This document shows, in pieces, positions 3,994 to 15,215 of a DNA stretch of 64,000 nt. How positions within the stretch are numbered: position 1 is the stretch's first letter; every line of letters begins with the position of its first letter. The position numbers and the translations under genes are program-made. This DNA comes from an uncultured cyanobacterium (lineage in GTDB: Bacteria; Cyanobacteriota; Cyanobacteriia; PCC-6307; Cyanobiaceae). The stretch covers positions 1 to 64,000 of the forward strand of contig CAIXBB010000003.1 of the NCBI GenBank assembly GCA_903917565.1, given 5' to 3'. Under the pieces are notes generated by a model that was not told the origin of the DNA, did not search any database, and worked only from the letters and a program-made list of their open reading frames with translations.

Positions 3994-4325
3994 TGGACGC
4001 GAGAGATCGCCAGGCTCTGATCGATATCAGGGATGTGCTGGATCGGGCTCTCGGGTACCCGATTGACAGCGAAGAAACGTTCTTCGCCAAGGATTACCTG
4101 CAGGATGCCGTGATCCGTTGTCTTGAGATTCTTGGCGAGGCCACCAAACGCCTCAGACCTGAGTTGCGTCTGCTTCACCCCGATCTGCCCTGGCGGGCCA
4201 TGGCAGGGATGCGCGATGTGCTGATTCATGCTTACGACCAGGTGGATCTCGAAGAGGTTTGGTTGGCCTATCAGCGCTTTCCGCAGATCCGTCTCCAGAT
4301 CGACGCCATCCTCAATCAGGGCTGA
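3993..4325 (+). CDS. HepT-like HEPN ribonuclease toxin (DUF86)
   Basis: A 110-residue HEPN/DUF86 protein with an intact RX4HXY motif (R74-DVLI-H79-A-Y81), the catalytic signature of HepT RNases. In characterised systems the neighbouring MntA AMPylates the Tyr of this motif and silences the toxin. The ATG at 3993 shares its A with the antitoxin stop codon. The gene is directly followed by a decayed fragment of the upstream helicase 3' end. Contrast the second HepT-like copy at 7712, where the His is lost. Confidence 0.85.
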   Translation: MDARDRQALIDIRDVLDRALGYPIDSEETFFAKDYLQDAVIRCLEILGEATKRLRPELRLLHPDLPWRAMAGMRDVLIHAYDQVDLEEVWLAYQRFPQIRLQIDAILNQG

Positions 4326-4343
4326 GGACGCCAGCCACCCCAG

Positions 4344-4622
4344 CCACCGCGAAGGCGTGCTCTGGCGCCAGCCCAGTGCCACCGATCTGCTGTTCATCAC
4401 CCTGCGCACAAGCAAAGCCCTCTTCTCCCCCTCCACCCGCTCCCGCGACCTGGCCCTCAGTCCCTCCCTGTTCCACTGGGAGAGTCAGAGCACCACCAGG
4501 CCGCCTTCGCCACCGGCCAGCGCACCATCCACCACGAAGGCGAGCGGCCGATGGCAATTCGTTGGCGGCTGCACAGGGCGATTCCGGGGGCCTTCTACCC
4601 GGAGCTGGCGGTGGCGGTGTGA
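4344..4622 (+). pseudogene. Helicase DUF3427 3'-end remnant (divergent copy)
   Basis: Translation around 4355-4500 (LLFITLRTSKALFSPSTR, then FHWESQS) matches the C-terminal DUF3427 region of the helicase at 499 but is clearly divergent. The frame then shifts near 4500 and continues as ATGQ-like then GERPMAIRWRLHRAIPGAF, ending at TGA 4620-4622. Relative to the intact gene about 30 codons (the LLFVREEN and LCLGFADYV stretch) are deleted between IHH and GERP. It has no start and cannot encode a working protein. Its divergence suggests it came from a different paralogue than the copy at 5413. Confidence 0.8.
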
Positions 4623-4647
4623 GTGCCAACCCCATCGCTCGTTCAGT

Positions 4648-5052
4648 TCACACTTCCGGCTTGTCAGAGCCAAGCAGAATCCTCAGGGCCTGCCTCAGCT
4701 TGCTGGCGAACTCCACCAGTTCTGCTTGTTCCTCGGCTGAGGTTTCAAAACCCGGGTAGCGAGCGAGAACCGCTCCTGAAGAGAGGTCAGCCAGTTCTTC
4801 GCCATCCCAGCTCCATTGGCCATCCACAGCTTCCAGCTGGCGGGACAGGGCGGCCAGATCATGGATCTTGTCGACCGGCTGCCCGAGCTGAATCAACCGG
4901 GCTTTGAGCAGTTTCTCGACACATTGCTGGGCGTGGAACACCACCGCATCACGCAGGCCGGGTGTGTTTCTGGTCAGGAGTATCTCCAGGGCTTCCCAAT
5001 CGCCTTCGGCCTTGGCTATCCACTCCGGAACGGCTGACCAGGGTTCAGCCAT
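4648..5052 (-). CDS. HEPN domain protein, partner of a nucleotidyltransferase
   Basis: A 134-residue HEPN protein starting MAEPWSAVPEWIAKAEGDWE. The FHAQQCVEKLLKARL helix followed by the KIHDLAAL segment is the usual signature of HEPN proteins that pair with minimal nucleotidyltransferases. No clear RX4-6H catalytic motif is visible, so it may not be a nuclease in itself. The start (5052) overlaps the end of the upstream nucleotidyltransferase gene by 8 bases. The pair lies opposite to the surrounding plus-strand TA genes. Toxin-antitoxin role is inferred. Confidence 0.8.
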   Translation of the reverse strand: MAEPWSAVPEWIAKAEGDWEALEILLTRNTPGLRDAVVFHAQQCVEKLLKARLIQLGQPVDKIHDLAALSRQLEAVDGQWSWDGEELADLSSGAVLARYPGFETSAEEQAELVEFASKLRQALRILLGSDKPEV

Positions 5053-5386
5053 GCAGCACCTCGCCATGATCAAGCGCCTCGCGCACGACCGGATCGCCCC
5101 CCCGGTAGCGAACCTCAATCTCCTCGGGCCGCCGGACCAGGAGATCCAGGGGAAATAGTGCCTGACAGAGTCGGCGCATTTCACGGATCTTGGCCAGGTG
5201 GCGTCCCTCGAAGGGCATCACCACCAGGATGTCGGCATCGGAATCCCAGCGCGCCTCTCCACGAGCCAAAGAACCGAACAGGATCACCTTCTCGGGGGCG
5301 TAGCGCTCCACCAGCCGCTGCGTGAAAGCCAGCAGCGCCTCACGGGTAACCAGAGGTGTCGGCGTGGTGGTCATGGGCTTCATCAT
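5045..5386 (-). CDS. Minimal nucleotidyltransferase (MNT), partner of HEPN protein
   Basis: A 113-residue nucleotidyltransferase with GSx10DxD (GSLARGEARWDSDAD) near residue 39. The adjoining ILVVMPFEG strand and the C-terminal LDLLVRRPEEIE segment fit the small MNT family. ATGs at 5386, 5383 and 5374 are all possible starts. The gene is first in a two-gene minus-strand operon with the HEPN gene. Its start lies only about 30 bases from the junction of a partial helicase duplication, so its promoter sits at a recombination boundary. Confidence 0.82.
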   Translation of the reverse strand: MMKPMTTTPTPLVTREALLAFTQRLVERYAPEKVILFGSLARGEARWDSDADILVVMPFEGRHLAKIREMRRLCQALFPLDLLVRRPEEIEVRYRGGDPVVREALDHGEVLHG

Positions 5387-5412: not shown

Positions 5413-6681
5413 GTGCTGTTCCTGCGGCCCACCGAGAGCGCGATCGTGTTCCTGCAGCAGCTCGGCCGCGGTTTGCGCCTCTGCCGGGGCAAAAGCTGCC
5501 TCACCGTGCTGGATTTCATCGGCCAGGCCCATCGCAACTTCCGCTTCGATCTGCGCTACCGCGCCCTGCTCGGCGGCACCCGCGACCAGCTGGAGCAGCA
5601 GATCGAGCAGGGGTTTCCCTTCCTGCCGGCCGGCTGCAGCCTGCAGCCTGCAGCTCGATCGCGTCTCCAGCGAGCGGGTGCTTTCAAATTTGCGCGAGTC
5701 GATGCCCAGCCGCCGCCCCCAGCTGCTCACCGAAGCCCGCCGCCTCGGGCGCTGTTCGCTGGCGGCGTTGCTGGAGGGGCTTGGGATGGAGCTGGGGGAG
5801 TTCTACCGGGTGGCGAAGTCCTGGGCGTTGCTGCAGCGGGAGCTGGGGTGGGTGGCGGCGTCGACGCCGTCGGGTGGGCCCACGGCGGATGACGAGAGGC
5901 TGGGGCGGGGGATCGCCGGCGGCCTGCTGCATCTGGACGACCCCGAGCGGTTGCATTGGCTGGTGGATCAGCTGCAGCGCCCCGTGGCGCCCGATCCGGC
6001 GGGTTTGGATCCTGTGGCCGAGCGCCGCTGGCGGATGCTGATGGCCCAGCTCTGGGGCAGCGGTCGGCAGCACCTGCCCCTGGCGGAGGCGTTGGTGCGG
6101 CTCTGGGCCGCCGCCGCGATCCGCGCCGAGCTGGTGGAGCTGTTCGAGCTGCTGCACGAGCGCACCGACCACCTGGTGGCGCCGCTCGCTTGGGGCCGCG
6201 CCGATTCGCCTCCCATCCCCCTCAAACTCCACGGCCGCTATGCCCGCGCCGAGGTGTTCGCCGCCTTCGGCATGCTCAACGAGGCCCGGCCCTTCCCAGG
6301 CCGGGAGGGAGTCTTCTTCGATGAGGCGACCCAGTGCGATGTCTTCTTCATCACCCTCAAGAAATCCGAACGCCTGTTCTACCCACCACCCGCTACAACG
6401 ACTAGGCCATCTCCCCGTGGGAGTTCCACTGGGAAAGCCAGAGCCTCACCTTGGAAGCGTCACCCACTGGGCAGCGCTACATCCACCACATCGAGCGGGG
6501 CAGCCAGGTGCTGCTGTTCGTGCGGGAGGAGAACAAGCGTGGAGGGGTGACGCTGCCGTTCCTGTGCCTCGGCTTTGCCGATTACGTGAGCCACGAGGGG
6601 GAGCGGCCGATGGCGATCCGCTGGCGGCTGCACAGGGCGATACCGGCGGCGTTCGTGCCGGAGCTGGCGTTGGCGGTTTAG
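5413..6681 (+). pseudogene. Partial duplicate of helicase/DUF3427 gene (3' 1.26 kb)
   Basis: Aligns base for base with 2401-3663 of the intact helicase gene, starting at VLFLRPTES and running to the stop. It lacks the PLD domain and helicase motifs I-V. Three lesions are visible: a 7-base tandem slip (an extra CTGCAGC near 5640-5660) shifts the frame, a one-base loss near 6380 shifts it again, and TAC has become TAG at about 6403-6405. The end is restored as AIPAAFVPELALAV. High identity indicates recent duplication compared with the remnants at 4344 and 7285. It ends 10 bases before a DUF433/DUF5615 pair. Confidence 0.92.
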
Positions 6682-6690
6682 CGTTGATCC

Positions 6691-6924
6691 ATGGACATCC
6701 AGGCAAGGATCACCATCAACCCGGCGGTGCGCTTCGGCAAGCCGTGCGTTCGTGGTACTCGCCTCACCGTGGGAGATGTGCTCGGTTCTCTGGCCAGCGG
6801 CATGAGTGAAGCGGAATTGCTGGAAGACTTCCCGCAGCTCAGCCACGACGACGTGCTGGCCTGCCTGGCCTATGCGGCAGATCGGGAACGTTGCCTGATC
6901 ACCCTGTCCTCATCGGCGGCGTGA
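6691..6924 (+). CDS. DUF433 antitoxin-like protein
   Basis: A 77-residue DUF433 protein (INPAVRFGKPCVRGTR, then a LLEDFPQLSHDDVLACLAYA helix). DUF433 is a small helix-turn-helix family commonly encoded just upstream of DUF5615 PIN-like proteins and regarded as the antitoxin. The start lies 10 bases after the stop of the helicase duplicate, and the stop overlaps the next gene as GTGA, so the two are coupled. Role as antitoxin is inferred from family and layout. Confidence 0.85.
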   Translation: MDIQARITINPAVRFGKPCVRGTRLTVGDVLGSLASGMSEAELLEDFPQLSHDDVLACLAYAADRERCLITLSSSAA

Positions 6925-7277
6925 GCGTCCGCCTACTGCTGGACGAGAACCTCTCAGAACGGCTACTACCACTGATCTTGGATCGGTTCCCCGATTCCAG
7001 CCATGTGCGGCTGCTCGGCCTGGGTGGAGCGGATGATCCGGTGATCTGGGAGCAGGCCAGATCTGATGGTGCTCTGTTGGTAACCAAGGACGAGGATTTT
7101 CTCCGGCTCAGCGTGACGCGCGGTTTCCCTCCCAAGGTGATCTGCCTGGACATCGGTAACGCCGGCAATGCTGCAACGGCGGCTCTGCTGCTTGCTCACG
7201 TCGAGGCCATTGAGGCTTTCTCAACCCATCCCGAGGCTGGATTCCTGCTTCTGAGGCCAGGTGGCCAGGCTCCATAG
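6921..7277 (+). CDS. DUF5615 PIN-like toxin
   Basis: A 118-residue protein starting at GTG 6921 (VSVRLLLDENLS). It has the DUF5615/Mut7-C-like PIN signature: an early Asp-Glu-Asn (LLDENLS), a central ALLVTKDEDFL, and a later PKVICLDIGN strand. These acidic residues form the metal site of PIN-type nucleases. The GTGA overlap with the DUF433 gene supports this start over an upstream TTG at 6891. It probably acts as a toxin RNase, inferred from family. Confidence 0.83.
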   Translation: MSVRLLLDENLSERLLPLILDRFPDSSHVRLLGLGGADDPVIWEQARSDGALLVTKDEDFLRLSVTRGFPPKVICLDIGNAGNAATAALLLAHVEAIEAFSTHPEAGFLLLRPGGQAP

Positions 7278-7284
7278 AAGATTC

Positions 7285-7393
7285 AGTGTCACGAAAGCGA
7301 GCGGATCCTGTTGGTCACTCAGTGGAGACCCACTGGCAGCTGGAGCGGGAGATCCCGGTGGCGTGGCTGCCGGTGATGGCTTTGGCGGCTTAG
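7285..7393 (+). pseudogene. Very short helicase 3'-end remnant
   Basis: The last codons read HWQLEREIPVAWLPVMALAA then TAG at 7391-7393. They match the helicase C-terminus (RWRLQRAIPAAFVPELALAV). The part before them (HESER, 7292 onward) resembles the preceding HQGER segment but in a shifted frame. This looks like the tail of yet another DUF3427 gene, ending 38 bases before an MntA-like gene. It is too short for certainty, but the position repeats the pattern seen at 3663 and 6681. Confidence 0.6.
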
Positions 7394-7431
7394 CGTCATG
7401 CCAGGCCCCGCCTCAGCGCTCACTGCCGGCC

Positions 7432-7728
7432 ATGGAAGTCAGTTCCGAAACCTTGATCAGCCAGTTGCGCCAGCACGCGCCCATCTGGAGTGAGCGTTTC
7501 GGCGTGCGCAGCCTGCGGATCTTCGGCTCCTGGGCCCGTGGCACAGCAACACCGAGCAGCGATGTGGATCTGCTGGTGGCCTTCGACGGCCCTGCCACCG
7601 CCAGACGCTTCTATGGCCTCCAGCTGTTCCTGGAAGACCTGCTCCAGCAACCTGTCGATCTGGTGACGGAACAAGCACTCCGGCAGGAGATTAGGCCAGC
7701 GGTGGAGGCGGATGCCATCACCCTCTGA
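7432..7728 (+). CDS. MntA-type minimal nucleotidyltransferase (second copy)
   Basis: A 98-residue MNT protein with GSx10DxD (GSWARGTATPSSDVD) and a C-terminal LVTEQALRQEIRPAVEADAI segment like the first copy at 3706. ATG at 7432 is the best start. The gene overlaps the following HepT-like gene by 17 bases. The two MntA genes share short stretches of identical DNA around the GSx10DxD codons but differ elsewhere, so they are paralogues, not a recent duplication. Confidence 0.84.
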   Translation: MEVSSETLISQLRQHAPIWSERFGVRSLRIFGSWARGTATPSSDVDLLVAFDGPATARRFYGLQLFLEDLLQQPVDLVTEQALRQEIRPAVEADAITL

Positions 7729-8068
7729 CGGCAGTCCGAAACGTGACTGGCGCCTCTATGCGCAGGGCATGGATCGGTTTGCCCATCGTGCCGTGCGCTA
7801 CTGCACTGAGCTGGACCGTGCGCAGTTCGAGTCGAATCAGCTGATGCAGGATGCCGTTCTTCGCAACATCGAGCTGATCGGCGAGGCCGCCACTCGCATC
7901 CCAGAGGAGGTGAAGCTTGCTCATCCTGAGATCCCCTGGCGGGAGATCATCGCGATGCGCAATCAACTCATCCGCGCCTACCTGGGGGTCGATCTTGATG
8001 TGGTGTGGGATGTGATCCAGGTGGAATTGCCGCTGCTTATCCTTCAGCTGAAGGCCGTGATGGCCTGA
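7712..8068 (+). CDS. HepT-like HEPN protein with altered catalytic motif
   Basis: A 118-residue DUF86/HepT-like protein overlapping the MNT gene. The helix with NQLMQDAVLRNIELIGEAA is typical of the family. At the RX4HXY site it reads R83-NQLI-R88-A-Y90: the catalytic His is Arg (CGC at 7973-7975; a single transition from CAC). The Tyr that MntA modifies is kept. The protein may therefore have lost RNase activity or be a decaying or escaped toxin. The alternative start ATG at 7769 would not change the motif. Confidence 0.82.
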   Translation: MPSPSDGSPKRDWRLYAQGMDRFAHRAVRYCTELDRAQFESNQLMQDAVLRNIELIGEAATRIPEEVKLAHPEIPWREIIAMRNQLIRAYLGVDLDVVWDVIQVELPLLILQLKAVMA

Positions 8069-8090
8069 CGGGCAGGGGCCATTCACGGGC

Positions 8091-8120
8091 CTACTATTCA
8101 TCACCCTGCGCAGGTCGGCT
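8091..8120 (+). pseudogene. Possible trace of helicase DUF3427 sequence
   Basis: Thirty bases encode [10 protein letters not shown], matching LLFITLRTSK in the remnant at 4344 and the VFFITLKKSE of the intact gene. Nothing else of the gene is left. It abuts the selO stop and may mark the right border of the island. Short enough to be chance, though its place after the fourth TA pair fits the pattern. Confidence 0.4.
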
Positions 8121-9844
8121 CATGAAGAACAGCTGTAGTGCGACACCCCTCCGGCGTTGAAGAATTCCCGGGGCTTCAGACAGTCGTAGGTCGCCGCCAA
8201 CTCCGGAGATAGCTCCTCGTAGGGATGGCGGAACACCTCCTGCAGCTCACTGACCAGGCCATAGTCACCCTGCGCCGCCTGTTCATAGGCGGGGGCGATC
8301 AGCCATTCGCGCCAGGTGACCTTGGGGTTGACGCGCTTCATCGCTGCCGAGGTCGCGGTGATGTCGCCGTCTGCCGTGAGGCGATCCCGCCACCGCTGCA
8401 GCCAGCTTTCCCATCGCCCATCGAGCGGCTCGGAGCTGGGCACGTAGAAGCTCTCCTTCAGAGCTGAGAGGTGCTCCGGGATCTCGGACAGCCTGCGGAA
8501 CAGGATCGTGTAGTCCACCTTGGAGAGCACCATCAGCTCCAGCAGCTCATTCACCAGCGCGGCGTCGTAGCTGATCAGGCCGAGCTTGCTGGCCCACATG
8601 GCCTCGATCTCCTCCTGCATCGCGCCTGCGAAGCCATCCCGGATCTGATCCAGTCGCGCCAGCGCCTGCGTGTTGCCCTCGAGCAGCGGCCGGATGGCTG
8701 TCCAGAACATCTGATAGTTGGCTTCGGCGGCCAGCGGTTGGTTGAAGAAGGAGAAATGCTCGCCGCCTCCCGTCCAGGGCTGAAACCTGGGGTCGAACAG
8801 TTCGCAGAAGCCGAAGGGGCCGTAGTCGAGGGTGTAGCCACCGGCGGCGCAGTTGTCGCTGTTGAAATTGCCCTGGCAGTAGCCCACGCGCATCCAGTGG
8901 GCCACCAGTGCGGTGAGCCGTCCGCGAAACAATCCCGCCAGCTCCACCACCTGATCGCTGAACTCCAGACCCGGATCAATCTCCGGCCGGTAGTTCCGCT
9001 CGATCAGGTGCTGAACGATCAGCCTCAGCTCGTGCAGCGCCTCCAGATGGGCACCGCTGCGGACGCGGCGGGCGAACAGCTCCAGCTGGCCCACCCGCAG
9101 AAACGATGGTGCCACCCGTGTGGTGATCGCCGCCGGGTTGTCCACCAGGATGTCGGGATCGAACGAGCGGGAGTTCAGCGCATACCAGGGCCGGCGCACG
9201 GTTTCGGACCTGGACACATAGAGCGTCAGGGAGCGGGAGGTGGGAACCCCCAGGGCGTGCATGAACTCCTGCGCCAGAAACTCCCGCACGCTGGAGCGCA
9301 GCACGGCGCGGCCATCGGCGCCACGGCAGTAGGGCGTGGGGCCACCGCCTTTCAATTGCATCTCCCAACGCTTGCCGTTGAAGACGCCTTCAAACACGGA
9401 AATGGCCCGCCCATCGCCGTAGCCGTTGCCGGTGCCGAACGGGCACTGCTGGATGTACTCAGTGCCGTAGATCGAGAGGGCATACCCGGTCGCCCACCCG
9501 AACGATCGCATCGGCTCTGTGGCCACCGTGATGTCGCCGGAAAACAGTCGGCGGAACTGGTCGTCGTGGGCCAGCGCCTCGCTCAGGCCCAGCTCGTTGA
9601 ACAGGGTTCTGCTGTACGCCACAACCTCCGGCACTGGAATCGGCGTGGGTGTCACCGGCACGTAATGACCGGAGAACACCTGGCGGGGCTGGTGATCGTG
9701 GCCGTCGCCGGTGGCCTGAGGATCCGCCTGCAGGGAATCCAGCAACGAATAGTCGACCCGTTGGGCAAACTCAGCGAAGGTTGTTGTCAGCACGGGTCTC
9801 TCGGGTTTTGCATTGTCGGGGCATGGCCCTGACGCTGAGGTCAT
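8120..9844 (-). CDS. selO: Protein adenylyltransferase SelO (YdiU/UPF0061)
   Basis: A 574-residue protein of the SelO family, a pseudokinase fold that transfers AMP from ATP to Ser, Thr or Tyr of target proteins and is linked to redox homeostasis. Family blocks visible include [22 protein letters not shown]-like [31 protein letters not shown] (nucleotide loop), [20 protein letters not shown] (metal-binding Asn/Asp) and FFNQPLAAE. ATGs at 9844 and 9847 are adjacent; longer upstream extension is unlikely. Bacterial SelO lacks the C-terminal selenocysteine; here the tail ends HYSCSS, with a Cys. Confidence 0.93.
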
Positions 9845-9959
9845 CATCCTGGCGAGCCTGCCCCCAGCAACTGCCGCACCAGCGGGGGTCACGGCTTCGG
9901 GTGCCTGGTTCGGGTGCCTAGGTTTAGCCCCTACCCCTCCTGCCGCCGCCAGAGAGCCC

Positions 9960-10169
9960 ATGAACCCGACCCTCAAAGGTGTTACCTACGTGAGTGTGTG
10001 GGTGGTGCTGTGGGGCACGGCGGCCTCCCTGGCCGATGTCGTGCTGCTGGACCGTGGCGCCTACGAAGCCGGCACCATCGGCCAGGGGATCACCTTCGCC
10101 GCCTACGGCATCGCCGCGGTGGTGCTGGCCGTGCGCCTGGCGGGGCGCTTCCTCAAACCTGAGCCCTGA
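9960..10169 (+). CDS. Small membrane protein, two predicted helices
   Basis: A 69-residue protein starting [20 protein letters not shown]. It has two hydrophobic stretches (about residues 8-26 and 42-60) joined by a charged loop with DRGAYEAGT, and a basic C-terminus ([11 protein letters not shown]). No family is recognised for certain; similar small proteins are frequent in picocyanobacteria. It lies divergently from selO and 32 bases before the glutathione transferase gene, so it may be co-transcribed with the latter. Confidence 0.65.
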
Positions 10170-10201
10170 GGTTGCCCCTGCCGCCCAGCTGATCCTTCCC
10201 C

Positions 10202-10861
10202 ATGGCCATCACCCGCCTCAAGCTCTTCCACGCCCCCGCCTCCCGCAGCGCCCGGGTGCGCTGGACGCTGCACGAGGTGGTGGGCGAGGGCTTCGAGCTG
10301 GAGCGGCTCGATCTGGCCAGGGGTGACCAGTTCGCCCCCGCCTTTGCGGCCCTCAACCCCAACCGATCCGTGCCGGTGCTGCAGGTGCACCGGCACGACG
10401 GCAGCGTGCAGACCCTGATCGAGAGCGCCGCGATCGTGCTGTTTCTGGCCGAGGCCTACCCCGCCGCTGGGCTGCTGCCGCCTGAACTCGGCTCTCCCGA
10501 GCGGGCGGACGTGCTGCAGATGCTCCAGTTCGGCGCCACCAGCGCCGATCGCCTGCTCTGGCAGATCCGCCTGCACGAGAAAGTGCTGCCCCCCGCGGAA
10601 CGGGATCCCGGCGAGGTTGAGCGCTCGCGCCGCCGCTTCCAGCAGCAGGTGGAGCCCCAGCTGGCCGAGCGGCTCCGCCAGGGCCCTCACCTCTGCGGCA
10701 GCGCCTTCAGCGCCGCTGATCTGGTCATGGGCCACAACGTGCTCTGGGCCCGCTCCTGTGGCCTCTGCGGCGAGCGCCTCTTCCAGCGCTACCTGGCCCT
10801 GCTGGGCCGCCGCCCAGCCTTCGCGCGGGCCTTCGACGACGTCATGGCCCTGCAGGCCTGA
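10202..10861 (+). CDS. Glutathione S-transferase family protein
   Basis: A 219-residue two-domain GST. The N-terminal thioredoxin-like domain includes LFHAPASRSARVRW (putative active-site Ser), NPNRSVPVLQV with the cis-Pro, and ESAAIVLFLAEAYP (the glutathione-binding Glu-Ser). The C-terminal helical domain has the FSAADLVMGHNV N-capping-box motif. It probably conjugates or reduces hydrophobic or oxidised compounds with glutathione in the cytosol. The substrate cannot be told from sequence. Confidence 0.9.
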   Translation: MAITRLKLFHAPASRSARVRWTLHEVVGEGFELERLDLARGDQFAPAFAALNPNRSVPVLQVHRHDGSVQTLIESAAIVLFLAEAYPAAGLLPPELGSPERADVLQMLQFGATSADRLLWQIRLHEKVLPPAERDPGEVERSRRRFQQQVEPQLAERLRQGPHLCGSAFSAADLVMGHNVLWARSCGLCGERLFQRYLALLGRRPAFARAFDDVMALQA

Positions 10862-11087
10862 ACCCGTTGCTCACGTCGTCCTCCTCCCAGCGCGAGTCCG
10901 TGATGTTCACCTCCAGTTCGCCGGGGCCTGCGGCCCGAGACATGCGCCAACTCAGCTCCCCTGCCATGGCAGGCCCTCAAAGCTCCTTCACCCGTTTCAC
11001 CGCCCAACCCGCCTCCACCGCAGTGACCGCGGCCACCAGAAACAGCGCCCCAGCACAAACCACATCGGGCGCTGCATCGCCGGCTGA

Positions 11088-11429
11088 TCAGCTCCAGCGC
11101 AGGCCAAAGGCCCCTGCGCAGACCACGGCGACCATCCCCGGTTGCTGGAGAACCGCCCGTGTCGGCCGCAGGAGCATCCCAGTCTGCCCCAGCAGATTCA
11201 GACTGGTGCCCACGAGCAGGATCACCCCTTCACCGCGGTAAATCCCCCAGGTGGTGATCAACCTGGCGATCGCGGCCGAGAGAACCCCGCCGAGGGTGAG
11301 CAGGGCCAGCAGAGGGTTGGCGGCCAGCGCGCCCTGCACCTGCACGGAGGAGACATCGACCCCAGGAAGGCGCTGAAGGATGTGAAAGGCGGCAAGGCCG
11401 ATCCACCGATCCAGCAACGGGAGTCCCAT
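11088..11429 (-). CDS. Hypothetical membrane protein, possibly truncated by a stop
   Basis: A 113-residue protein with about three or four hydrophobic segments (LAANPLLALLTLGGVLSAAI, VILLVGTSLNLLGQTGMLL, MVAVVCAGAFGL). It ends at TGA 11088-11090. The same frame continues for another 36 codons to TGA 10977-10979 and contains a further hydrophobic helix (CAGALFLVAAVTAVEAGWAV) with a basic end KRVKEL. The gene may therefore have suffered a nonsense mutation, or a second small gene follows. No family recognised. Confidence 0.55.
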   Translation of the reverse strand: MGLPLLDRWIGLAAFHILQRLPGVDVSSVQVQGALAANPLLALLTLGGVLSAAIARLITTWGIYRGEGVILLVGTSLNLLGQTGMLLRPTRAVLQQPGMVAVVCAGAFGLRWS

Positions 11430-11529
11430 GCCTGCATGGTGCGCAGGCTTGGAGGCGTGCGCCAGCCGGGGTCCACCAGAAGCGCTTCGGGATGGGGCCT
11501 GTTCTGGGGTGACGGCTGAAAGCGTGGCA

Positions 11530-13758
11530 ATGACTACAAATCAATCGAATCCGCCAACTAAAGTGACCAAGGCGTTTTCGGCGGATCAATCTCTGGTGTG
11601 GATGCGTCGTCTCTCCAGGGATTCAGTCAATCAGCTGAGCATCAAATCCAAGCTGATTCTGATGCTCCTGCTGGTGAGTGGCTTTTCCACACTTTTCACC
11701 GCAGCACTGGGTTATCGCAGCGGCCAGATCAATCTCACCAACCGCGTCTTCAATCAGCTCACCAGCGTTCGCGCTTCCAAGGCCTATCAGATTGAGTCCT
11801 ATTTCAAAAATATCCAGAATCACACCCAGACCCTCAGTGAGGATCTCTCCATCGTCGCCGCGATTGAAGAGTTTGATTCCGCCTTCCAGCAGCTGGAGAA
11901 GACACCCCAGCCTGCCGCAGCAACCAAAGTTCTTGAGGGCTACTACCGCAGGGAATTCCTGCCCCGGCTCGACAAATACCACGTCGGCACACCAAATCTG
12001 CCCGCCTACCTGGCCAGCGATCCGGCCACCCGCCACCTCCAGTACAACTACATCGCCGCCAATCCCAATCCCGTCGGCAAGAAACAACAACTCGTAGCCG
12101 CCACCGATGGCAGCGCCTACACAAAAGTGCATAGTCGCTATCATCCGATCTTTCGCAATATTGTTTCCAGATTTGGCTACTACGACATGTTCCTCATCAA
12201 TCCGAAGGGACAGATCGTCTACACCGTTTTCAAGGAGACGGATTACGCCACCAATCTGGAGAATGGCCCCTACAAGGACAGCAATCTGGCCCAGCTGGTG
12301 CGGGACGTGATCGCCTCGAAGGAGAAGGGATTCACCCAGCTGGTCGACTTTGCCGCCTACGCCCCCTCCTACGGCACGCCCGCCGCCTTCATTGCCGCAC
12401 CCATCTACGACGGCTCGAAGCTGGTGGGGGTTCTGGCCTTCCAGTTGCCTGTCAACGAGATCAACAACGTCATGACCGGCAACCAGGACTGGCAAAGGGA
12501 TGGACTTGGGAAATCAGGCGAAACCATCCTGGTGGGCGACGACAACCTGATGCGCTCGGCCTCCCGTTTTTTCCTTGAGGATCCCAAGGCCTATCTGGCC
12601 CAGCTGGAATCGCGCGGCTTCAAGAAGGACGCCATCGCCCGACTGAGCCAGTACAACACCACGATCCTGCAGCAACCCGTGGCGACCCCGGCGGTGACGA
12701 AGGCCATCGCCGGTGGGACGGGCACCCTGCGCGTGGTCGACTACCGCGGCGTGCCCGTGCTCAGTTCCTATGCACCGCTGCAGATCGATGGGCTCCACTG
12801 GGTGATCCTCTCCCAGATGGACCTGGCCGAGGCCTACGCCCCGATCCATGCCTTCCAACGCCAGATCCTGATCACGGCCACCCTGCTGATCCTTGTCGTC
12901 ACACTGCTGGCCATGGCCCTGGCCCATCTGTTCGTCAAGCCCGTCCAGCAACTGATCGACAGTGCCCGCCGGGTCAGCTCCGGGGAGCTGGCCAGCATCC
13001 CCGATCTCAACTCCAGAGACGAGTTCGGCGAACTGGCCCAGTCCTTCAATGCCATGGTGCGCAGCCTCCAGACCCAGACGGCCCTCGTCGATCAGACCAA
13101 CCAGGAGAACGAGCGCCTGCTGTTCAGCGTGTTTCCAGCCGCCATCGCAAGGCGGCTGCAGAGGGGCGAAACCCAGATCGCCGAAGAGGTCACCAACGTG
13201 GCGGTGCTGTTCGCCGATCTCAAGGGGTTTTCCCGGCTCGTGTCCTCCCTCAGTGCCCATGAGTCGCTGGCCATTCTCAACGATCTGGTGGCCTCCTTCG
13301 ATGACCTGGCCGCCCGTTTCGGCCTGGAGAAGGTGAAGACGATCGGCGACAGCTACCTGGCCGTCTGCGGCCTCTCGGTGCCGTACCTCGATCATGACAA
13401 ACGGGCCATTGATTGCGCCATCGAGATGCAGGGCGTCCTGCGGCGTTTCAACCTCGAACGTGGTTTTCAACTCGGTATCCAGATCGGCATCCACTCCGGC
13501 GACATCGTCGCCGGCATCGTTGGCAAGAGCCGGGTTGTCTATGACATCTGGGGGGAAACGGTGAAGCTGACCCATAGCCTCAGCCAGGCCTGCCCTGCCG
13601 GCGCTGTGTTCGTCTCCGAGGTGGTGCACCACCGGCTCGAGGATCTCTACCCCTTCGAACGCATCGCCGCGGCCAACGGGGCCCAGGAGGCACCGCCGGC
13701 CTGGCGGCTCACCGGCGCCGCCGTTCCCACCGCCGGTGAGGCCCTGGCCAAGCCATGA
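11530..13758 (+). CDS. Membrane class III adenylate/guanylate cyclase with extracytoplasmic sensor and HAMP
   Basis: A 742-residue receptor cyclase. TM1 lies around residues 36-57, followed by a large Cache-like periplasmic domain (about 60-430), TM2 (about 440-465), HAMP (about 466-518; RRVSSGELASIPDLNSRDEFG) and the class III cyclase domain (about 550-720). Metal-binding Asp residues are present (FADLKGF, D563; KTIGDSY, D607) and D672 stands in YDIWG. But the transition-state Asn and Arg of the usual VNxAxR helix are replaced (VKLTHSL: Lys679, Ser683), so activity or product may differ. The stop overlaps the channel gene start (ATGA). ATG 11530 is chosen because earlier residues are not family-like. 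Confidence 0.9.
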   Translation: MTTNQSNPPTKVTKAFSADQSLVWMRRLSRDSVNQLSIKSKLILMLLLVSGFSTLFTAALGYRSGQINLTNRVFNQLTSVRASKAYQIESYFKNIQNHTQTLSEDLSIVAAIEEFDSAFQQLEKTPQPAAATKVLEGYYRREFLPRLDKYHVGTPNLPAYLASDPATRHLQYNYIAANPNPVGKKQQLVAATDGSAYTKVHSRYHPIFRNIVSRFGYYDMFLINPKGQIVYTVFKETDYATNLENGPYKDSNLAQLVRDVIASKEKGFTQLVDFAAYAPSYGTPAAFIAAPIYDGSKLVGVLAFQLPVNEINNVMTGNQDWQRDGLGKSGETILVGDDNLMRSASRFFLEDPKAYLAQLESRGFKKDAIARLSQYNTTILQQPVATPAVTKAIAGGTGTLRVVDYRGVPVLSSYAPLQIDGLHWVILSQMDLAEAYAPIHAFQRQILITATLLILVVTLLAMALAHLFVKPVQQLIDSARRVSSGELASIPDLNSRDEFGELAQSFNAMVRSLQTQTALVDQTNQENERLLFSVFPAAIARRLQRGETQIAEEVTNVAVLFADLKGFSRLVSSLSAHESLAILNDLVASFDDLAARFGLEKVKTIGDSYLAVCGLSVPYLDHDKRAIDCAIEMQGVLRRFNLERGFQLGIQIGIHSGDIVAGIVGKSRVVYDIWGETVKLTHSLSQACPAGAVFVSEVVHHRLEDLYPFERIAAANGAQEAPPAWRLTGAAVPTAGEALAKP

Positions 13759-15215
13759 ACACGGCGATGCCGCTGTGGATGTGGGGCCTCGGCCTGGCCG
13801 TCGGCTTTCCCCTGGTCACGGTGCTGCTGGGGGAGGTGATCCACCGGCTCAAACGGCGCGGCCGGGCCATCGCCAGCACGGTGCGGCTGGTGCGGAATGT
13901 GCTGCTGCCGATGCTGGTGCTGATGGTGTTCCTGCAGCACCTGCTCCAGGTCGATCCCGGCACCCGCCTGTTCCGCACCATCGAGACGGTGTTCTGGGTG
14001 TGCGTGATCCACGCCGCCCTCTCCCTGCTCAACGTGATCCTGTTCGAGCAGGCCGAAGACGACACCTGGCGCTCGCAGGTGCCGAAGCTGCTGATCGATC
14101 TGGCCCGCCTGTTCCTGATCCTGCTCGGGACGGCGTTCGTGCTGGCCTCGGTGTGGAACGCCGATCTGGCCGGTCTGGTCACCGCCCTGGGGGTGAGTTC
14201 GATCGTGATCGGTCTGGCCCTGCAGGACACCCTCGGCAGCGTCATGTCCGGAATCGCGTTGCTGTTCGAGCGCCCCTTCACGGTGGGGGACTGGCTCGAG
14301 GTGGGCGGGGTGGTGGGCCAGGCGATCGACATCAACTGGCGCGCCGTGCGGCTGCTGACCCTGGAGCAGGAAATGGTGGTGATCCCCCACAAACTGATCA
14401 GCAGCGAGGTGATCCGCAACTTCACCAAGCCCACCCCGATCCATGCCGAACGCATCCAGATCGGCTTCTCCTATAACGATCCACCCAACCTGGCCCGGCA
14501 GGTCCTCAAGAGCACCGCCCTGGAAACCAAGGGCATCCTGCTGGATCCAGAACCGGATGTGTTCACCCTGGCCTATGCCGACTCCGCTGTGACCTACGAG
14601 GTGAAGTTCTTCATCCGGGACTACGGCGACATCGAGCAGATCCGTGAACGTTTCATGACCAGGGTGTGGTACGCGGCCAAGCGCAACAACCTCTCGATTC
14701 CCTTCCCGATCCGCACGGTTTATAACTTCCATGGGCCCACGAGCCAACAGAAAGGACTCGCCAAGAAGTTCAGCGAAAGCCTGCAGGCCATCCCCTCCTA
14801 CGTCCCGATCAATCGCGAGGAGCACAGCGTCGCCCCCTCCGCATCAGGAATTTCATTGCAGCACTTTGCCGCCGGTGAGAAGGTGATCCGCCAGGGCCAG
14901 ATGGGCAATGAGCTTTACATCATCGTGGCCGGGCAGGCGCTGATGACACGACGGAATGAAGCCGGAGAGGATCTGGAACTCCTCTCCCTCCGAAGCGGCG
15001 AATTCTTCGGTGAGATGAGTCTCTTTTCCGGCGAACCCAGTGCCGTGACGATCGCGGCCAGCAACGACCTGGAGGTGATGAACATCTCCGCCACGGTGGT
15101 CAACCAGATGATCGACCGTCAGCCCAGCTTTGCCCGCGAAATCGGCCAGATCATCGAGAGCCGCCGCCTGGCCATCCACGAGACGACCCAGGCCCTGCCC
15201 CGCCCCGCCACCTAG
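13755..15215 (+). CDS. MscS-type mechanosensitive channel with C-terminal cyclic-nucleotide-binding domain
   Basis: A 486-residue protein. Five hydrophobic segments fill residues 1-170, the last being the MscS pore helix (GVSSIVIGLALQDTLGSVMSG) followed by the MscS beta domain (FTVGDWLEVGGVVGQAIDIN, VVIPHKLISSEVIRNF). Residues about 360-475 are a CNBD (AAGEKVIRQGQMGNELYIIV; FFGEMSLFSGEPSAVTIAA). In canonical CNBDs an Arg following the Pro binds the cyclic phosphate; here it is Ser429. Such bacterial CNG channels gate ions by ligand or tension in the plasma membrane. Its ATG lies inside the cyclase stop overlap (ATGA), strongly suggesting that the cyclase makes its ligand. Confidence 0.93.
   Translation: MNTAMPLWMWGLGLAVGFPLVTVLLGEVIHRLKRRGRAIASTVRLVRNVLLPMLVLMVFLQHLLQVDPGTRLFRTIETVFWVCVIHAALSLLNVILFEQAEDDTWRSQVPKLLIDLARLFLILLGTAFVLASVWNADLAGLVTALGVSSIVIGLALQDTLGSVMSGIALLFERPFTVGDWLEVGGVVGQAIDINWRAVRLLTLEQEMVVIPHKLISSEVIRNFTKPTPIHAERIQIGFSYNDPPNLARQVLKSTALETKGILLDPEPDVFTLAYADSAVTYEVKFFIRDYGDIEQIRERFMTRVWYAAKRNNLSIPFPIRTVYNFHGPTSQQKGLAKKFSESLQAIPSYVPINREEHSVAPSASGISLQHFAAGEKVIRQGQMGNELYIIVAGQALMTRRNEAGEDLELLSLRSGEFFGEMSLFSGEPSAVTIAASNDLEVMNISATVVNQMIDRQPSFAREIGQIIESRRLAIHETTQALPRPAT

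Follow-up and report, generated by a model that had tools for sequence, protein, structure and literature searches.

Can the fold of a class III nucleotide cyclase signal without making its product? This question is raised by a two-gene locus on contig CAIXBB010000003.1 of an uncultured member of the Cyanobiaceae (assembly GCA_903917565.1), of which positions 1 to 64,000 were analysed and are called the window below. At this locus, a gene for a membrane receptor with a class III cyclase domain precedes a gene for an MscS-family channel that carries a cyclic-nucleotide-binding domain (CNBD). The two genes overlap and are inherited together, residues for catalysis and for phosphate binding have been lost, and the cyclase domain and the CNBD are under purifying selection. 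Degeneration of an enzyme and loss of a key binding residue in its apparent receptor coincide in a single two-gene unit, which is kept across many cyanobacterial families. We see about an even chance that the receptor is a pseudocyclase that sets the gating of the co-made channel without cyclic AMP (cAMP), most likely by contact, where the contact, the gating effect and the signal are all presumed.

Organization of the receptor and channel genes

The receptor gene and its domains were assigned as follows.

11533..13758, + strand: receptor (pseudo)cyclase gene, 741 amino acids, ATG at 11533 and TGA at 13758
12160..12810, + strand: dCache sensor domain, residues 210-426 (Pfam PF02743 dCache_1, 45.5 bits, barely above the cut-off of 45)
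12919..13071, + strand: HAMP domain, residues 463-513 (Pfam PF00672, over cut-off)
13183..13644, + strand: class III cyclase domain, residues 551-704 (Pfam PF00211 Guanylate_cyc, 129 bits, cut-off 21.9)

The start of the receptor is uncertain and may lie at 11428 (the longest open reading frame, ORF), at 11533 or slightly downstream; its close relatives start near window residue 13 or later. The layout of the protein would be a transmembrane segment, dCache, a second transmembrane segment, HAMP, a signalling helix and the class III cyclase domain, with the transmembrane segments and the helix as predicted elements.

The channel gene begins within the last codons of the receptor gene.

13755..13758, + strand: ATGA stop/start overlap of 4 bases (channel ATG 13755-13757, receptor TGA 13756-13758)
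13755..15215, + strand: MscS-family channel gene with a C-terminal CNBD, 486 amino acids
14226..14699, + strand: MscS beta domain and C-terminal cage, residues 158-315 (Pfam PF00924 and PF21082, over cut-off)
14859..15119, + strand: CNBD, residues 369-455 (Pfam PF00027 cNMP_binding, 67.6 bits, cut-off 27.5)
15093..15170, + strand: C-helix of the CNBD, residues 447-472, unusually conserved in the paired channel family

Within the channel, the Pfam spans are 158-225 for MS_channel_2nd and 234-315 for MS_channel_3rd, and by its domain content the protein is a member of the MscS superfamily. The channel half matches the solved MscS, MscK and YnaI and the CNBD half matches regulatory subunits of protein kinase A (PKA); no single structure with its best stretch over both halves was found among the 60 of 142 matches listed. 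In all nine closest pairs, and also in L142 and L143, an ATG stands at this -4 position, and the overlap suggests translational coupling of receptor and channel. Neither the overlap nor the gene order is due to chance, because relatives with as little as about 36% identity show the same order. A first-pass annotation of this DNA had described a Cache-HAMP-class III receptor overlapping an MscS-CNBD channel by ATGA, and its coordinates and domains were borne out; the absence of key residues from both nucleotide domains was beyond what such a reading could show.

Loss of catalytic residues in the cyclase domain

Excerpts of a guanylate cyclase structure report (PMC2576301) list as catalytic residues two metal-binding aspartates, a ribose-orienting asparagine, a transition-state arginine, and an arginine and a lysine for the triphosphate. 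Paired receptors were aligned to intact cyclases and scored at seven positions, namely the two metal aspartates, the base lysine, the base aspartate, the ribose asparagine, the transition-state arginine and the triphosphate arginine. The window cyclase retains both metal aspartates (D562 and D606) and has three replacements, identified by alignment, with roles taken from the same excerpts.

13480..13482, + strand: Q650 for the triphosphate-positioning arginine (PMC2576301)
13564..13566, + strand: K678 for the ribose-orienting asparagine (PMC2576301)
13576..13578, + strand: S682 for the transition-state arginine (PMC2576301)

These three catalytic residues are gone in the window receptor and in its eight closest relatives, and a VKGKG-like loop was not found when the window receptor was aligned with intact cyclases. 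From this alignment we infer that the window cyclase domain is catalytically inactive.

Among 41 paired cyclases, the transition-state arginine is kept in 4, the triphosphate arginine in 13, the first metal aspartate in 21 and the ribose asparagine in 23, while the second metal aspartate and the base aspartate are each kept in 30 and the base lysine in 31. All seven residues are present in two of the 41 (L153 and L155). This tally includes L158, whose first-metal entry is spurious because its broken gene misaligns. In L075-L077 and L163-L168, both metal aspartates and the transition-state arginine are lost, together with most of the base residues, and the channels still adjoin. The first-pass annotation had proposed a circuit in which the channel is gated by a nucleotide from the receptor; in these loci the pairing persists all the same. 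The catalytic losses differ between sub-clades, suggesting repeated loss; on the receptor tree, unordered parsimony gives three changes of the transition-state arginine, and four or five losses are counted if regain is excluded.

All six receptors of L163-L168 have a C-terminal extension past the degenerate cyclase domain, which is a globin domain in both cases tested (L163 and L166). That a domain stripped of its catalytic residues carries an extra sensor is consistent with its being a scaffold. In L169, a methyl-accepting chemotaxis protein (MCP) domain stands in place of the cyclase output, and L170 aligns like L169. Sensor modules of this kind feed MCPs both in cyanobacteria (L169) and on proteobacterial plasmids.

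Loss of the phosphate-binding arginine in the channel

An arginine in the phosphate-binding cassette of CNBDs grips the cyclic phosphate, as stated in excerpts of a report on trypanosomatid PKA (PMC10959531). The window channel has a serine at this position.

15039..15041, + strand: S429 for the cassette arginine (GEPSAVT against, e.g., GEPRSAT; by alignment, role as in the excerpts of PMC10959531)

The cassette reads FGEMSLFSGEPSAVT in the window channel, against FGEMTLFLDAPRSAT in another MscS-CNBD channel of the same genome (locus L079). The arginine is found in none of the 43 channels of the paired family (42 aligned together, plus L078), and in all 22 other MscS-CNBD channels with aligned sequence, some 75 such matches being listed in the Cyanobiaceae alone. 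The channels beside the complete cyclases of L153 and L155 also lack it, suggesting that loss of the canonical contact in the channel may have preceded the losses in most of the cyclases. In the L063 and L149 channels an arginine lies one place after the canonical position (PSR for PRS) and might substitute for the canonical contact. The window CNBD is predicted from its cassette not to answer cAMP. With Q650, K678 and S682 in the receptor and Ser429 in the channel, the proposed nucleotide-gated circuit is unsupported for the window pair, and inferring it from the domain names would probably mislead.

Cassettes without the arginine are known from the trypanosomatid PKA regulatory subunit, where, according to the same excerpts, polar residues replace it and the protein shows no response to cAMP and binds purine nucleosides (PMC10959531). 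The polar replacement is shared by the window channel, whereas the ribose-binding glutamate, which replaces an alanine and forms the nucleoside site in the PKA described there, is unmatched (window Ser422), and the PKA domain belongs to a kinase subunit rather than to a channel. The KCNH (EAG/hERG) channels have a cyclic-nucleotide-binding homology domain and are not gated by cyclic nucleotides; they have another pore fold than the window channel, which in addition has a co-encoded degenerate cyclase receptor.

Bacterial cyclic-nucleotide-gated (bCNG) channels are named as members of the MscS superfamily in titles of a reference list (PMC4560390). As far as these titles tell (Caldwell 2010, Malcolm 2012), they share with the window channel an MscS core and a C-terminal CNBD. 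The window channel has the CNBD of this class and lacks the phosphate arginine, the comparison being with the 22 other MscS-CNBD channels and not with published bCNG proteins. Annotation as cyclic-nucleotide-gated may be wrong for some channels. No description of the receptor-channel pair was found among the matches listed in the literature searched, which did not cover the primary bCNG papers; the new element is a conserved unit, built from familiar domains and a channel of a known class, whose nucleotide chemistry is largely lost.

Conservation of the pair in cyanobacteria

The pair was searched for in 201 genomes of the Cyanobiaceae, the family of the window genome, and in 386 genomes of the phylum. 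The cut-off for the channel family (E < 1e-90) was chosen after inspecting the match lists, and the first phylum match that falls short of it, in G241 (6.5e-88), has the CNBD arginine. Within the Cyanobiaceae, 15 channel loci were identified in 14 of 201 genomes, and a full-length receptor is present in 13 of these 14. The exception is G143, where the channel is split over two ORFs some 560 bases from the contig start, so that the upstream gene cannot be judged. At the phylum level, 25 of 386 genomes have both receptor and channel and none has one alone at the cut-offs used, and 26 of 28 channel loci are linked to a receptor; G430, with its receptor in two pieces, is among the 25. These phylum counts are lower bounds, because at most two or four candidates per genome, depending on the search, were scored. 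Co-occurrence is given as counts, since Fisher tests would treat related genomes as independent. A contig scan with the channel query yielded three close named relatives and one CNBD-only match. One locus, L063 from Cyanobium sp. FGCU6, is added by these relatives, which brings the total to 43 channel loci, 40 of them linked; L061 and L062 duplicate the G113 and G124 contigs and enter the counts a single time. A separate search for the receptor alone, outside the pair counts, found it in 19 of 60 relatives.

In all 40 linked pairs the receptor gene comes first and lies on the same strand as the channel gene. A candidate channel start is located no more than 100 bases past the receptor stop, or overlaps it, in 30 of the 40, and the exact 4-base overlap ATG was found in 11. 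As a check on whether the pair is carried along with its gene neighbourhood, the four genes flanking the window pair were compared with Cyanobiaceae loci; three are matched in some of these loci and the GST-like ORF in none, the comparison being confined to loci of that family. The main clades agree between the receptor and channel trees, and receptor and channel distances correlate with r 0.956 over 39 pairs, including the unlinked pair of G305, with 0 of 2000 permutations reaching this value. L158 and L076 (both with an incomplete receptor) as well as L079, L169 and L170 were left out of the receptor trees, and L158, L076, L079 and L081 out of the channel tree.

These data support the assignment of the receptor and channel genes to a dedicated unit as judged by sequence comparison. 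A conserved pairing of cyclase and MscS-CNBD genes across cyanobacteria was what the first-pass annotation asked to be checked, and it is strongly upheld by the 40 of 43 loci, the 25 of 386 genomes and the r of 0.956. Of the earlier interpretation, the dedicated unit and its conserved pairing stand, and the nucleotide circuit is not supported for the window pair.

Several loci are irregular. The split channel of G143 (L078) occupies positions 562-2066, in two ORFs close to the contig start. In L158 (G430, 5424-8713), the receptor is broken into ORFs of 560 and 205 amino acids about 1 kb apart and the channel is whole. An ORF of 141 amino acids lies on the same strand between the receptor and channel genes of L164 (G494, 4168-5127). 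The L171 channel (6893-8353) is a lone copy with no receptor before it, and the gene after it presumably encodes a phosphate-type binding lipoprotein.

Selection on the cyclase domain and the CNBD

The three closest genomes were compared with one another in three pairings, and the ratios of nonsynonymous to synonymous substitution rates (dN/dS) are 0.04-0.08 in the cyclase domain, 0.03-0.07 in the CNBD and 0.02-0.09 in the MscS part. The cyclase domain and the CNBD are under purifying selection, and with such low values neither looks like a decaying relic. For the window clade, the low dN/dS of the cyclase domain led us to reject the view that it is a relic in decay. Constraint is weak (dN/dS 0.36-0.49) in the C-terminal tail of the receptor (705-741), the expected place of the VKGKG loop.

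Conservation of the paired channels was further compared with that of other MscS-CNBD channels over nine segments, using 13 paired-family and 19 other dereplicated rows (the 22 other channels minus rows more than 85% alike). The ratio is highest in the C-helix (2.09) and lowest in the phosphate cassette (1.29). The raised conservation of the C-helix points, though weakly, to a new surface. The cassette itself is still fairly conserved in the paired family, with a mean identity of 0.71.

Proposed mechanism and alternative explanations

In the proposed mechanism, the dCache receptor would sense something outside the cell and relay the signal, via HAMP and the signalling helix, to a dimer of the cyclase fold that has ceased to produce cAMP at any useful rate. 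The conformation of this fold, rather than a product, would set the gating of the co-translated MscS channel. It would most likely do so through contact with the cytoplasmic CNBD of the channel, where the conserved C-helix is a candidate surface, and the contact would shift how readily the channel opens under membrane tension. In a fuller form of this idea, the two proteins make up a contact-gated unit in which the cyclase domain has become a signalling scaffold and the CNBD a docking site, so that a second-messenger pathway has collapsed into contact with both folds kept; we place it somewhat below an even chance. If true, this would be a bacterial receptor-channel unit with its second-messenger pathway reduced to protein contact.

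A number of observations weigh against a product-free contact mechanism. The window cyclase has K602 and D671 at the base positions in addition to both metal aspartates. We take K602 and D671 to be the adenine-selecting lysine and aspartate. Because both metal aspartates and both base residues are kept, ATP binding and slow turnover are possible. Two relatives (L153 and L155) are complete and two more keep the transition-state arginine, and catalysis may matter in the sub-clade of relatives with kept residues. The lead of the C-helix is small, the MscS beta segment reaching 2.00 and the transmembrane part 1.94. As to gene arrangement, the remaining 10 of the 40 linked pairs have gaps of 109-960 bases, those of L164 and L168 fit an ORF of more than 100 amino acids (in L168 on the opposite strand), G305 has both genes separated, each amid other genes, and the second channel copy of G321 (L171) has no adjoining receptor. 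AlphaFold models from four sequences (the window and L061-L063) had pLDDT values of 39 and 33 and were not used. Finally, a CNBD that lacks the arginine can still take other ligands, as in trypanosomatid PKA, which binds nucleosides according to the excerpts cited above (PMC10959531).

The last point leads to an unlikely but serious alternative, a non-canonical ligand, in which the CNBD binds a nucleoside or something that the altered cyclase makes or consumes, or else the cyclase domain is an ATP sensor, and the receptor sets or reports the ligand. The metal and base residues of the window cyclase would let ATP bind, the cassette is fairly conserved in the paired family, and purine nucleosides are bound by a trypanosomatid PKA with the same arginine replaced, according to those excerpts (PMC10959531). 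Yet the ribose-binding glutamate is absent from the window channel (Ser422) and was not seen in the aligned family rows, and L075-L077 and L163-L168 have neither the metals nor most base residues, so that one ligand chemistry could not serve every pair. The classical circuit, possibly a weak one, in which the receptor makes cAMP that binds the CNBD and gates the channel, appears quite improbable. It would agree with the domain set, the overlap, the conserved pairing, the metal and base residues of the window, the complete L153 and L155, and the bCNG titles that name cyclic-nucleotide-gated MscS members (in the reference list of PMC4560390), but it conflicts with the loss of the ribose asparagine, the transition-state arginine and the triphosphate arginine that the window receptor shares with the eight relatives nearest to it, and with the missing CNBD arginine in 43 of 43 family channels. 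In the few relatives with a complete cyclase (L153 and L155), the circuit of the first-pass annotation may still operate, although their channels lack the arginine too.

It is also conceivable that the genes merely share a transcription unit and that both proteins answer the same stress without acting on each other, as operon partners need not interact and the channels of L171 and G305 have no linked receptor. We regard this as very improbable, given that the pair spans many cyanobacterial families, that the receptor and channel trees match even among deep paralogues and that co-occurrence is complete in the 386 genomes at the cut-offs used. Least credible of all is a heterodimeric cyclase, in which the receptor would contribute the metal side and another class III protein of the cell the ribose and transition-state residues. 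The window domain does have metal residues and lacks the asparagine and the arginine, as one half might, and the genome has four other class III domains; however, the one other domain aligned (L079) itself has both metals, the asparagine and both arginines, the metal side, too, is gone from other paired lineages, and the dedicated neighbour of the receptor is a channel and not a cyclase.

Unpaired receptors and other cyclase-channel neighbourhoods

Receptors on Sinorhizobium and Ensifer plasmids show about 38% identity over 89% of the window receptor, and 19 plasmid records cover at least 80% of it. Three rhizobial dCache-HAMP-class III proteins (L183-L185) have the same architecture as the window receptor and, unlike it, all three keep the seven residues and the VKGKG loop. 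In a six-frame profile search of the 4-5 kb upstream and downstream of the L183-L185 receptors, no frame resembling an MscS-CNBD channel was found, and the branch parting the rhizobial from the paired receptors has full support. Generic MscS-CNBD-like matches occur in 126 plasmid records of all organisms, at less than 60% identity, rhizobial plasmids included. The intact unpaired rhizobial receptors and the mostly degenerate paired cyanobacterial ones offer themselves for comparison. The L183 plasmid also carries a second annotated cyclase-domain gene (11203-11989) about 4 kb downstream of the unpaired receptor.

The genome of the window contains another class III cyclase next to an MscS-CNBD channel, at L079 (C45:75000-94000), where the channel (9634-11394) and the cyclase (7682-9832) lie on the - strand. 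Unlike the window channel, the L079 channel keeps the cassette arginine. The L079 cyclase, which we take to be of the CHASE2 type, keeps both metals, the asparagine and both arginines, and only its base-selecting aspartate differs (alanine). Four class III domains are located within about 24 kb of contig C45. Of the four other class III domains in the genome, L079 alone was aligned residue by residue; in a motif scan of the class III domains of the genome, clear cyclase motifs were found, besides the window, for L002 alone, which is the same gene as L079. The L079 neighbourhood fits the idea of a cyclase gating a channel better than the window pair, and it would be the first place to look for such a circuit, if present in these cells. 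Leaving aside two or more weaker matches that extend into the CNBD, 75 MscS-CNBD channels were tallied in the Cyanobiaceae; at least 32 of them have a class III domain no more than 5 kb away, in no fixed order or strand.

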